Source: Spirosoma pollinicola
GTDB taxonomy: Bacteria > Bacteroidota > Bacteroidia > Cytophagales > Spirosomataceae
Direction of reading: 5' to 3'
DNA: 64,000 nucleotides
Assembly: GCF_002831565.1 (NCBI RefSeq)
Contig: NZ_CP025096.1
Coordinates: 8,304,468 to 8,368,467, forward strand
Numbering within the stretch: position 1 is the stretch's first letter; each line of letters opens with the position of its first letter. The notes under the pieces are model-generated. The model had not been told where the DNA came from, made no database searches, and was given only the letters and a program-made list of their open reading frames with translations. The position numbers were made by a program, and so were the translations under genes. Below, in pieces: positions 2,399-64,000 of the stretch.

Positions 2399-2463
2399 TG
2401 AACTTGCTACATTTGACTGGAGACTTTTTTTAGGCAGATTTGAGGCCAAACTTCAATTTGACC

Positions 2464-2694
2464 ATGGTTAAACGACGTGTGTTTGACGAAGCATTCAAGG
2501 AAATGGCTGTCGAGCTGTCTTATGTAAAAGGATCAATTCAAGAAGCCGCCCGCGAATTGGACATCGATCCAGGACGAATCAGCAAATGGAGACAACGCCA
2601 CAAAAAAAACGATCAAACGTTGCCTGCCAATACCACACTTACTGACGAACAGCAACAGATCAGAAGGTTGCAACGAGAGCTTCGAGAAGCTCAG
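2464..2694 (+). pseudogene. IS3-family transposase OrfA (helix-turn-helix)
   Basis: The protein starts MVKRRVFDEAFKEMAVEL at ATG 2464. It contains a helix-turn-helix (SIQEAARELDIDPGRISKWR) and the leucine-zipper-like end RRLQRELREAQ that normally continues as TERDILKKA in intact relatives. Homology stops at 2694, directly before the six-frame stop 12-mer, so the natural programmed frameshift region to orfB is lost. A more decayed copy lies at 34552. Confidence 0.8.
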
Positions 2695-2695
2695 A

Positions 2696-2707
2696 CTAGC
2701 TAGCTAG
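2696..2707. other. Six-frame stop palindrome CTAGCTAGCTAG (junction 1)
   Basis: This 12-mer is its own reverse complement and puts TAG in all six frames. It sits exactly between the end of orfA homology (2694) and the start of orfB C-terminal homology (2709), where roughly 700 bases of a normal IS3 element are missing. The same 12-mer occurs at 35161 and 61274, also at breaks in transposase genes. It is probably an assembly or gap linker rather than natural sequence. Confidence 0.7.
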
Positions 2708-2708
2708 C

Positions 2709-2960
2709 TCCCTGGCGGAGCGGGTGCTTCAGTCTCTGAAAGACGACTGCAAACTTAGCCGTACGTTTACCTCTTTTACCGCAGCCGCCGAGGGTGTTGA
2801 ACGAGCGATTACGGCTTATAACACGGTTCGTCCGCACGCTTCGCTGAATTATTTAACTCCGCACCAGATGCACCAGCGAAAGCGTAAAGTCAAGTTACGA
2901 TGGTACCCTTATAAAAAGGTGAGGTACGGAAATGTGCAATACGAGGGCCTGTTACGGTGA
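2709..2960 (+). pseudogene. IS3-family transposase OrfB, C-terminal fragment
   Basis: The frame from 2709 reads SLAERVLQSLKDDC, matching the region around the catalytic Glu (xxAERV), then AITAYNTVRPHASLNYLTP, the conserved end of IS3 rve domains. It ends in a basic tail. The Asp-bearing N-terminal two thirds are missing, so no active transposase can be made. Confidence 0.8.
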
Positions 2961-3002
2961 TTTTAATATCTGTCCAATCTAATCAGTAGCATACGGGTTC
3001 GC

Positions 3003-34845: not shown

Positions 34846-34916
34846 TAGGTTTGATTAAGAGCACAAACCAAGAAAAATACAACGGATCAATTCCAAAAGT
34901 TGTGGAGCATCAAGGA

Positions 34917-35160
34917 TTAAGCATATAACTGAGTTAGGCGGTACAGAAAGAATTCGATGTTTCGCACCCCGCGGAATTGACTTCGAAATGCTTTGATCTT
35001 CGCATTGAACGACTCGGCTGAAGCGTTGGTACTGCGGTTGTCAAAGTAGTTGAGAATCGTTTCATAATGATTTTGGATAGAACGGGCCACGGTGTTGAAA
35101 GTTTTGAATCCCGCTTGGCGTACTTTTTCATGCCATTTGGCCAAGCGGGCTAAGCCATAA
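34917..35160 (-). pseudogene. ISL3-family transposase C-terminal fragment
   Basis: The minus-strand frame reads ARLAKWHEKVRQAGFKTFNT, then NYFDNRSTNASAESFNAKIK (catalytic Glu region) and FRGVRNIEFFLYRLTQLYA up to the stop at 34917. The N-terminal three quarters are lost, and homology runs right up to the six-frame stop 12-mer at 35161. The OrfA fragment lies downstream, so two elements head to tail or a circle-like junction is implied. Confidence 0.8.
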
Positions 35161-35172
35161 CTAGCTAGCTAG
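35161..35172. other. Six-frame stop palindrome CTAGCTAGCTAG (junction 2)
   Basis: Directly abuts the truncated end of the ISL3 transposase fragment. Sequence on the right (35173 onwards) has no relation to an ISL3 element. Identical to the 12-mers at 2696 and 61274. Confidence 0.7.
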
Positions 35173-35371
35173 ACGGGCCTTCTTACACTTATCCACAGGT
35201 GGCCTGATTTAGCCGGAATGTATGGCCTGTCATGGCCGTATTGAATGGCCTACTTTAGGCCGAAATATACAGGGAGCATACGTGATAAATTACTCGATCT
35301 AGATTATGGGCTTAATTTAAGCAGAAGGGTTAGTAGTTCACAATTCACAAAGTCTTAAAAAAACGCTCTTA
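35173..35371. other. Intergenic, no gene seen
   Basis: Contains several short GGCCT/AGGCC-type words and, at 35351, a diverged copy of the dispersed motif (AAACGCTC then TGAGAGGC). No coding frame. Confidence 0.3.
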
Positions 35372-60696: not shown

Positions 60697-60987
60697 TTAA
60701 CATGGATTCAGTCGATTCGCCATCAACTTCATCTGCGCTAACGACTGCTCCGCTTCGGCTTTGGTGAGTTCCTCTAACTCGTAAATAAATAGAATAGGAC
60801 CTAGCTCATCTTCCTGGTACTGCGCCTTCAAACCAATCCAGATCATCCACTCCGGCGCATGGATAATTGGGCAGACGCTCAAGGCCTGGCTCTGATCAAT
60901 CAACGGATAGTAGTGGGCATATTGGGCCAATCGTCGCTGTAATACCGTATGGATTCCGGCCTGGACATCAGCGGGTTGGACTTGCAA
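60697..60987 (-). pseudogene. 5'-truncated hypothetical gene
   Basis: A 96-residue frame (PADVQAGIHTVLQRRLAQYA, APEWMIWIGLKAQYQ, ELTKAEAEQSLAQMKLMANR) from a TTG at 60987. It looks like the C-terminal part of a longer protein: no ATG or upstream region remains because the IS3 fragment begins at about 60993. Family not recognised. Confidence 0.45.
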
Positions 60988-61005
60988 CAGTATAGTGGAG
61001 ATTTT

Positions 61006-61273
61006 TTAGGCGGCCATTGAGGAAGTGTAAAAATAAGATTCCTGTTGACTGGGCGTGCGGTAATTCAATACTGAATGCTTCCGTCGGCGGTTGTACCATC
61101 CCTCGATATACTCGAAAGTAGCCAACCGAGCCGCTGCCCGCGTGGCAAAATAAGTATGATTGACCATCTCGCACTTGAGGGTCTTAAAAAAACTCTCAGC
61201 AACCGCATTATCCCAGCAATTTCCCTTGCGGCTCATACTTTGCGCCACCGGTAAGTCCTTTAGTTCATCCCTA
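61006..61273 (-). pseudogene. IS3-family OrfB C-terminal fragment (IS150-like)
   Basis: The minus-strand frame reads DELKDLPVAQSMSRKGNCWD, NAVAESFFKTLKCEMVNHTY (catalytic Glu) and FEYIEGWYNRRRKHSVLNYR up to a natural stop near 61006. It is open up to 61273, where it meets CTAGCTAGCTAG. The IS right end (TATAGTGGAGATTTTTTAGG) lies at about 60992-61011. A different IS3 subgroup from copies 1 and 2. Confidence 0.85.
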
Positions 61274-61285
61274 CTAGCTAGCTAG
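61274..61285. other. Six-frame stop palindrome CTAGCTAGCTAG (junction 3)
   Basis: Joins an IS3 transposase fragment reading leftward to an ISKra4-like fragment reading rightward. Both are cut mid-gene at the palindrome. Identical to those at 2696 and 35161. Confidence 0.75.
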
Positions 61286-61564
61286 AAGAAGAGGAGCTTA
61301 CGGGATTCAGTTTGTTCTTATCTGGAGTCCAATCGCGACCGGATGGACTATGCGGGTTATCAAAAGCGGGGTCTGTTAATCGGTTCGGGAGCCATTGAAT
61401 CAGCCCACCGGACGGTGGTCCAAAAAAGGCTGAAGCGATCGGGCCAACGCTGGAGTGTGGCCGGTGCTCAACATGTGCTAAATCTACGCACTTGCTTTAT
61501 GAGCGAACGCTGGGAGTTGGTTAGAAAACATATCGAACCCTTCAATTACGCAATGGCCGCGTAG
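61286..61564 (+). pseudogene. ISKra4-like transposase C-terminal fragment
   Basis: The plus frame reads YAGYQKRGLLIGSGAIESAH, RTVVQKRLKRSGQRWSVAGA and QHVLNLRTCFMSERWELVR, matching the C-terminal region of ISKra4-type transposases (GSGxxES, GxRW). It ends at TAG 61562-61564. The inverted-repeat end GGGTGCATTTCA (minus strand) lies at 61584, where it interrupts an integrase gene. Confidence 0.8.
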
Positions 61565-61584
61565 CGACAATTTGAAATGCACCC

Positions 61585-62680
61585 TTTGCAACGGTATCTT
61601 GTCGCCAGCGTTTTGGGCGAACGAATGACGGGCAATATGCATGGTTAGCGTCTTTTCGATTCCGGCGGCAGGTGCTACATACTTCTTCAAACATTTATCG
61701 ATAGCACTGGTCTTGAAGGCAATCGTACGTTCCGTAATGAACTTGTCGTCAAGGTTGACATCTTTAAGTTCAGGAAAGACCAAGTCATCCTTATTGCGCT
61801 GAAATGCCTTGTATTGCGCCGTGATCTGAAGTGCCTTGTCCGGCACCTTGAGCGAGCCGCCTTTATTGTTCTTGCCCATCTCGTAATGCAGCCGGTCGTT
61901 TTGGAAGTCGCTCCATCGCAGACGCAACACATCGCTGATCCGCACCCCGGCCAAGTAGTAAGAGAATAGCCAAAGGTTCCGTACATGGTGCGGCTGGCCT
62001 TCGAGAGAAACTGTTTCAAGACGTTCTAACTCATCTTGATTCAGGCCGACCTTGGACGAGTCAGGAAACTTGATCTTCATTTTTCCTTTGCCAAATGGAT
62101 AAAACTTCTCGTCAACCGCACCTTCTTTAATAGCGTGACTAAAGACCGAGCGCATCATGACGATGTGGTTGATAGCCGATCGTTCTGAAAGATTGAGTTT
62201 CGTACGGATATGACCTTTGAACCGTTCCAGCACCGCAACGGTGATTTCCGGTAAGGCAATATCCTGTTTTATAAATTCTTTAAAGTGCTTGACGCGCGGC
62301 TTGTCAGCCGTGTACTGATTGTATTTGCCAGCCTCTTTCAGACGTTGCAGATACAGATCAGCCTGGGCAAAGAAAGTTGATCCTGTGGATGGTTTGATCC
62401 TTTGCCGAACGGCATGGGATGAGACATGTGATTTCTGCGTTTCGAGTTCTATGGCCTGTTTTTCTGCTTCCAGCTTTTTGGTTGACAAAAAGTTGTTAAG
62501 CCAGGTGCTGTTCGGATATGATTTTTTGACGCGCTGTTTATCGGCGTCCCAATCATCAGACTTTATACTGTAATCGAAATAGATATAAGAAGATTTACGA
62601 TCTTTGGTAATGCGAATGGCAAGGGGAAAGGTACCATCCTTTTTCTTTTCCTTGCGAAGTACAATATTGATAGTTGCCAT
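61585..62680 (-). pseudogene. Tyrosine recombinase/integrase truncated by ISKra4-like insertion
   Basis: About 365 residues remain. The N-terminal Arm/SAM-like domain (KDGTFPLAIRITKDRKSSYI, IYFDYSIKSDDWDADKQRVK) and the core domain are present, with catalytic Arg in AGVRISDVLRLRW and HxxR in LTMHIARHSFAQNAG. After KIPLQ the sequence turns into the reverse of the IS end, so the C-terminal catalytic Tyr is missing. The frame then reads about 30 foreign residues. It lies 126 bases from a tRNA-Phe fragment, i.e. beside its probable att site. Confidence 0.85.
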
Positions 62681-62805
62681 TTTGCCTACAACAATCCTAC
62701 AACAAGAGGTGGTTTAGCCCGGAATCTTGTGTATTAATGTGAGCGCTAAGCTACTCAAAATCAGCAATATCGAATCATATCAGACCATATAAAATCATTT
62801 TACGA

Positions 62806-62854
62806 AGGACTGAAAATCCTTGTGTCGGCGGTTCGATTCCGTCCATCACCACCA
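62806..62854 (+). tRNA. tRNA-Phe 3' fragment (attachment-site copy)
   Basis: The sequence starts at the anticodon arm (GGACTGAAAATCC, GAA anticodon), then a variable loop, T-arm (GGCGG TTCGATT CCGTC) and acceptor half CATCACC plus ACCA. The 5' half (D-arm, GGTGATG) is not present upstream, so this is the 3' half only, as left behind at an integration site. The integrase at 62680 points away from it. Confidence 0.85.
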
Positions 62855-62865
62855 CCCTAACGCGA

Positions 62866-62891
62866 GCCTTCCCAATCGGGAAGGCTTTTTT
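62866..62891 (+). terminator. tRNA terminator
   Basis: Stem GCCTTCCC/GGGAAGGC with loop AATC, then TTTTTT. Located 11 bases after the tRNA CCA, consistent with the original end of the tRNA gene. Confidence 0.8.
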
Positions 62892-62944
62892 ATGGCCCAT
62901 TGTCTCAAGTATTTCCTTTTTGCAATCATCAGACTAGAAAACTA

Positions 62945-62996
62945 ATTTGCTGTCATAATAATAGTATGCAAGCATACTATTATTATGACAGCAAAT
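62945..62996. repeat. Perfect 25-bp inverted repeat
   Basis: Arms 62945-62969 and 62972-62996 match at all 25 positions around a 2-base centre. AT-rich. No gene. It may be cruciform-forming or a terminator. Confidence 0.6.
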
Positions 62997-63066
62997 ATAC
63001 TGCTTTCACTAAATCTAACAAGAGTTAAACAGGGTTGTTTTGGATTTAAACCAGACGGGCCCTTAA

Positions 63067-63137
63067 GTACCAAACAGCATCTTGCTGTTTATAGCGTTTA
63101 TAATACTTCCCACAAACAGCAAGATGCTGTTTGGTAC
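63067..63137 (-). terminator. Long hairpin after the MutS-like gene
   Basis: Perfect 24-bp arms 63067-63090 and 63114-63137 with a 23-base loop, starting 6 bases beyond the stop of the minus-strand gene. Confidence 0.65.
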
Positions 63138-63142
63138 CTACA

Positions 63143-64000
63143 TTATTTCTTTACGGCATCCATTTCTATACCAATGGCCCGCATGAGCTGGCTGGCATTG
63201 AAACTCTTGCAAATGCCGTCGCGAAGTTTGTAATCAAACACGAGTTCGCCGTTGTTAAGATCGGATTGGAAGTGATAATTGCGAACGAAGCCGTCGGCAT
63301 CCGTTAACTGGCCTAACTCAAGATCGTGAGTTGAAACAAAGCCCGAAGCCGTTGTGTGGTGTAGCTGCCTAATAAGTGCCTCTGCGCCCCGATGACGGTC
63401 GGCGGAGTTAGTACCCTTCAGAATTTCATCCAGAAAATAAAGAACAGGCAAACCCTTCGGTGATTTATCAGCTTTTGTCAGGCCAATAAGGGTTTGAAGC
63501 CGCTTGAGTTCGGCATAAAACGACGAGGTACTTTCCTCAAGTGAGTCCTGTGTACGCATGCTTGTAAACACCTGCACGGGCGAACACCAGAACCGCTCGG
63601 CTCGCACAACAGCTCCTGCCAGCGCCAGCACGACATTTGTACCCACCGTGCGCAGAAACGTACTTTTCCCCGACATATTGGAGCCGGTAATCAAGATGGT
63701 TTTACCAGAACCTCTTACGATGAGCGAGTTGGCAACACTATTATTCTGAGCCAACAATGGATGTGCTGCCGATGTAATTTCCAGGACAAACTCATCATCG
63801 ACGATGTCAGGCGTAGCATACGACGGGTGCGCAAACGAGAAACCGGCCAGGCTATTCAGGGCTTCCAGTTCGCCAAGAGCGTCGAGCCAGTAATTAAGCA
63901 CGGGCCCATAGGTTTGCCGCCAGCGTTCGAGTCGAAGCAGGTAGTGAATGTCCCAAAGCGTTGCTACACCAAACAATAAAAAGAAATAGGGGTTTCGCCG
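63143..64000 (-). CDS. MutS-family ATPase, C-terminal part (5' end outside window)
   Basis: About 286 residues visible, open to the right edge. The ATPase core is clear: Walker A ILITGSNMSGKSTFLRTVGT, signature-region SMRTQDSLEESTSSFYAELK, Walker B LPVLYFLDEILKGTNSADRH, and the His switch SGFVSTHDLELGQL. The first visible residues are hydrophobic (NPYFFLLFGVATLWDIHYLL), suggesting the membrane-anchored MutS-related type rather than MutS1. It probably acts in DNA or nucleic-acid remodelling; role uncertain. Confidence 0.85.
   Translation of the reverse strand, partial: RRNPYFFLLFGVATLWDIHYLLRLERWRQTYGPVLNYWLDALGELEALNSLAGFSFAHPSYATPDIVDDEFVLEITSAAHPLLAQNNSVANSLIVRGSGKTILITGSNMSGKSTFLRTVGTNVVLALAGAVVRAERFWCSPVQVFTSMRTQDSLEESTSSFYAELKRLQTLIGLTKADKSPKGLPVLYFLDEILKGTNSADRHRGAEALIRQLHHTTASGFVSTHDLELGQLTDADGFVRNYHFQSDLNNGELVFDYKLRDGICKSFNASQLMRAIGIEMDAVKK

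Follow-up and report, generated by a model that had tools for sequence, protein, structure and literature searches.

A repeated 12-base six-frame stop sequence in the single-contig genome of Spirosoma pollinicola points to a draft assembly joined by artificial spacers

The question raised by this locus is why the same twelve letters should stand three times in one window (the whole stretch of 64,000 nucleotides that was analysed), and whether they belong to the organism or to the way in which its genome was put together. The sequence, CTAGCTAGCTAG, occurs exactly three times, at 2696-2707, 35161-35172 and 61274-61285, as the original prediction had it. The description of its composition is also correct: the twelve letters are their own reverse complement and carry TAG in each of three frames, so that TAG is present in all six. 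That three chance copies in 64 kb are very unlikely holds as well, i.e. none of 100 dinucleotide-shuffled windows contained the 12-mer, and Markov models of orders 1 to 3, derived from the window minus its three copies, give an expectation of 0.0006-0.002 copies per 64 kb. The tetramer CTAG is not rare (122 occurrences in the window, including 9 within the three copies). The count over the whole genome, which had been suggested as a check, gives 105 exact copies in the single contig (C1, 8,794,837 bases) as opposed to none of the reversed pattern; with one mismatch permitted there are 10 additional copies, versus 6 for the reversed control.

A conspicuous regularity is found in the distances between the copies. 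Cutting the genome at all 105 of them yields 106 pieces, which are numbered here in genome order. The first nine are 1,042,507, 889,540, 444,547, 437,743, 381,773, 348,671, 685,299, 337,326 and 303,471 bases long, and piece 70, the last one of the size-sorted stretch, has 598 bases. Over pieces 1-70 the length decreases strictly with a sole rise at piece 7, and the Spearman correlation of length with position is -0.9997. Over all 106 pieces the correlation is weaker (-0.889) because the 36 tail pieces, 71-106, are unsorted (26 of 506-966 bases, ten longer). The longest falling run comprises 64 pieces, as compared to a maximum of 10 when these lengths were shuffled 20,000 times. We know of no biology by which copies of a sequence would come to lie at intervals ordered by size, whereas contigs pasted from a size-sorted list would show exactly this. 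Note that the order of the list is visible for the first 70 pieces, while the last 36 lack it. Piece 7 (C1:3544854-4230152, 685,299 bases), the one exception to this order in the first 70, has the length that one would expect if two contigs of about 342 kb were joined there by a spacer that escaped notice. The part of it that was inspected contains a run of N, and the letters that can be read show no copy of the 12-mer within 2 mismatches.

We consider it nearly certain (probability about 0.99) that CTAGCTAGCTAG is an artificial spacer and that a draft of roughly 106 contigs was joined into one sequence. This reading is based on the size-sorted spacing, on overlaps of about 298 bases between the ends of pieces, on the repeats at the six flanks in the window and on the published use of the same letters. 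The original prediction had proposed a linker placed where contigs broke at IS repeats, and the same four lines of evidence bear it out. The draft, of about 106 contigs, would have been concatenated with the 12-mer between them, most contigs being placed by falling length and the rest, for the most part small and including probable circular molecules, being appended without such an order. The spacer would serve to stop any gene call from crossing a join, and indeed an identical sequence with stops in six frames stands at every join (105 exact copies). We infer that a person or a script added it before annotation or deposit.

The ends of the pieces show how the contigs may have come to stop where they do. 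Up to 1,400 bases were taken from each of the 212 piece ends and compared end against end only. Exact terminal overlaps were found in 70 cases, and 33 of these were dropped as short pieces matched to their own whole sequence. The remaining 37 consist of 26 overlaps between different pieces and 11 self-overlaps. Between different pieces, the overlap is 295-299 bases long in 19 out of 26 occurrences (in one of them after 3 unmatched bases) and 146-241 bases long in the other 7; the self-overlapping pieces do so by 298 bases (nine), 294 bases (one) or 146 bases (one). Among the ends of pieces 1-63, 82 out of 126 finish in sequence common to the end region of another piece. Control chunks were shared in this way in 0 out of 500 cases when drawn from the interior of the window and in 2 out of 500 when drawn from piece 17, these being the only two regions used. 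In 66 of the 81 ends that share sequence at 98% identity or more, the longest shared stretch is 280-310 bases. The recurrence of overlaps and shared stretches of about 298 bases means that many contigs reach into a repeat for roughly the length of one assembler word and end there, and we infer an assembler word length of about 299.

It had also been suggested that one should see whether every copy of the 12-mer lies at a truncated repeat. This is not the case when ends are compared with other end regions only: at least one flank falls in a shared end repeat at 53 out of 62 junctions among pieces 1-63 and at 72 out of 105 overall, which leaves 9 and 33 junctions, respectively, without a repeat flank in this end-against-end test. 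Counted by ends, 108 out of 212 lie in repeats common to other ends and 104 do not, again in the end-against-end test.

The window itself consists of the right end of piece 37 (1-2695; the whole piece has 33,477 bases), the complete pieces 38 (2708-35160, 32,453 bases) and 39 (35173-61273, 26,101 bases), and the left part of piece 40 (61286-64000; the whole piece has 25,954 bases). The three 12-base six-frame stops thus separate pieces 37 and 38 (2696-2707), 38 and 39 (35161-35172), and 39 and 40 (61274-61285), and all six flanks end in repeats. The window also encodes a protein of 1,080 residues; 6 out of 23 loci encoding its relatives match over most of its length with 55-58% identity, three being from Spirosoma.

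At the first site, the left flank (2399-2695, plus strand) is the first 297 bases, i.e. the orfA part with an HTH_Tnp_1 domain, of an IS3-type element about 1,177 bases long. The left end of piece 48 has this stretch with 100% identity, as does a complete copy of the element within piece 25 (C1:7697377-7698553). The right flank (2708-2996, plus strand) belongs to another IS3-type element, about 1,380 bases long, of which it represents the last 289 bases, and carries the orfB C-terminus with the integrase core (rve_3). Complete copies of this second element, too, were assembled elsewhere, and the one in piece 2 is 100% identical over the 289 bases. The original prediction saw here a single IS3 element running from orfA to orfB with about 700 bp missing. 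Both halves are of the IS3 type as it said; the idea of one element has to be given up, since by its matches the site is two different IS3-type elements side by side. The right end of piece 18 shares 298 bases with the opposite end of the same kind of element as the one at 2708, which makes piece 18 a candidate neighbour of window position 2708. A clear target-site duplication was seen in none of the three assembled copies of this element, and the ends of pieces 18 and 38 did not match each other in this respect.

At the second site, the left flank (34884-35160, minus strand) is a repeat of 277 bases that contains the C-terminus of a DDE_Tnp_ISL3 transposase, as seen from the Pfam family. It has 22 matches in the genome, 7 of which, this one included, are 100% identical over all 277 bases, and the repeat is common to the end regions of pieces 5, 9, 12, 16, 20, 56 and 67. 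The right flank is a repeat of 99-100 bases at the left end of piece 39 (35173-35272) that recurs with 100% identity in pieces 7 and 43. An ISL3 fragment had been predicted next to this copy of the 12-mer, and it is there, with transposase sequence on the left side only. An apparent overlap of piece 38, at its right end, with piece 5 was rejected as a contact between contig ends: the matching sequence sits some 1.15 kb within piece 5, in the same orientation, and tells us only that the repeat is also present there.

At the third site, the left flank (60976-61273, minus strand) is the last 298 bases, with the orfB C-terminus, of an element of the kind that begins at 2399 (IS3 type, about 1,177 bases). 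To the right, 3 bases after the spacer, there is a 296-base repeat (61289-61584, plus strand) that is found at 5 identical places in the genome, namely at the left ends of pieces 4, 40, 41 and 51 and in piece 67, which is 779 bases long. The prediction of an IS3 element joined to an ISKra4 element is thus upheld for its left half. The ISKra4 label found no support, as the 92-residue piece at 61286 matched no Pfam family at E <= 0.01. Piece 67 holds both the end sequence of piece 38 and the start sequence of piece 40; in it, the C-terminus of the ISL3-type transposase (window 34920-35144) faces the reading frame of window 61286-61561. As the two face each other there, the ISL3-type element and the element at 61286 may adjoin in the real genome.

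Even if the 12-mer marks joins, one could imagine that the pieces on its two sides are true neighbours and that it merely replaces a stretch of a correctly ordered genome, as in a scaffold gap. Three papers do describe, in the passages concerned, this spacer between contigs that had been ordered on a reference genome. In addition, when ends were searched against ends, five of the six in the window (the right ends of pieces 37, 38 and 39 and the left ends of pieces 38 and 39) gave no terminal overlap that would point to another neighbour. We nevertheless regard this explanation as very improbable, for three reasons. Firstly, the pieces are ordered by size and not by position. Secondly, the two halves at 2696 come from different elements. 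Thirdly, there is a 296-base overlap of piece 40, at its left end (window 61286), with the left end of piece 4, which pieces 41, 51 and 67 overlap likewise, so the assembly itself offers a different neighbour for piece 40. With the 12-mer read as a spacer between unordered contigs, it follows that gene order across the three points in the window is unproven, as had been cautioned. The suspicion that part of the apparent IS decay is artificial is justified too: the transposase truncations at the three sites are contig ends and not decay.

A second alternative is that the 12-mer is a natural repeat, e.g. a palindromic protein-binding or integration site that is targeted by mobile elements. At first sight the window would agree with this, as transposase sequence adjoins the 12-mer at all three sites, and there is a precedent in Frankia, where the passage in PMC6735867 describes a natural CTAGCTAGCTAG inverted repeat around nod genes, with transposases nearby in several strains. 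A natural repeat, however, would not show falling distances across 70 pieces, nor would it be found at points where the adjoining DNA breaks off some 298 bases into a repeat. It would also be expected at similar abundance in close relatives, yet only one out of 35 other genomes of the genus contains it, in a single copy. The 12-mer is thus present in 2 out of 36 genomes of the genus, in 2 out of 59 relatives and in 3 out of 395 genomes of a phylum sample (105, 2 and 1 copies), each of these sets including the present genome, and this rarity shows that it is not a trait of the lineage. We hold this alternative to be even less credible than the previous one. As to chance matches, the one or two copies in a few other genomes may be of that kind, but the roughly 0.1-0.3 copies expected in a genome of this size (scaled from the window estimate) compare to 105 seen, and the count refutes this explanation to a degree that leaves it next to no weight.

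It is instructive to compare the joined sequence with published pseudochromosomes. The same twelve letters are described as a spacer inserted between concatenated contigs in the relevant passages of PMC3464603, PMC3082526, PMC4195474, PMC5383966, PMC5399434 and PMC4475827; stops in six frames are given there as the purpose, except in the passage of PMC4475827, which only calls the 12-mer a linker. The arrangement of the contigs is different: it is by size in the present genome, whereas in the six accounts it is reference-based in three, random in one and not given in the text of the other two. In PMC2793016 the same letters are described as a stop tag for gene prediction on both ends of each contig, in contrast to the one 12-mer per junction found here. 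Given this published use as a spacer or an end tag, the artificial spacer proposed here would be an artefact of a known kind.

The consequences concern above all what is counted as chromosome. Ten pieces (17, 74, 76, 89, 96, 99, 100, 101, 102 and 105) start and finish with the same 294-298 bases, and all ten are printed as part of one "chromosome". Circular molecules in such assemblies show an identical start and end; since a terminal direct repeat could look alike, these ten pieces are only probably circular. The largest is piece 17 (C1:6622673-6792685, 170,013 bases), the first and last 298 bases of which are identical, giving 169,715 bases after trimming. It encodes relatives of plasmid Rep, relaxase and TraG-like proteins and probably represents a circle of about 169.7 kb that carries conjugation-type genes. 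Piece 89 (C1:8699396-8733550, self-overlapping, 33.9 kb) encodes a tape-measure protein, a primase-helicase and a replication-initiation-like protein, and from this gene content it looks like a phage or a phage-plasmid. The small self-overlapping pieces (74, 76, 96, 99, 100, 101, 102 and 105), which measure about 18.1, 14.6, 10.4, 3.7, 3.5, 3.5, 2.4 and 2.2 kb when trimmed, lie within C1:8682648-8794319. Plasmid families were found in four of them, i.e. Mob_Pre (74), Rep3 (99, 102 and 105), a relaxase (102) and a TraG-like coupling protein (105), and a family search with one of the proteins of piece 76 gave no match.

Taken at face value, this is a genome presented as one contig and scored as 100% complete with 0.16% contamination. 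It is quite likely that it is a pasted draft that hides a conjugation-type element of 169.7 kb, eight circles of about 2.2-18.1 kb, at least four of them with plasmid replication or mobilisation families, and a phage-like circle of 33.9 kb. If this is true, anyone who relies on the sequence as it stands to study gene order, plasmid content or IS decay would be led astray, and nothing in the completeness score would alert them to it. We suggest that the sequence be handled as about 106 contigs in arbitrary order and orientation and that, at the 105 sites, truncated transposases, unusual gene neighbours and breaks of synteny be regarded with suspicion; probable plasmids are being counted as part of the chromosome. 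Other pasted drafts could be screened for at little cost by counting a spacer and asking whether its copies are spaced in order of size; the count, carried out for this 12-mer only, exceeded 2 copies in none of the 394 other genomes of the phylum sample.

The tail also has some features of its own. Fragments of rRNA (small and large subunit, 5S) and two tRNA matches were found on small tail pieces, some of them crossing spacers, and one tail piece of 662 bases contains 22 scattered N.
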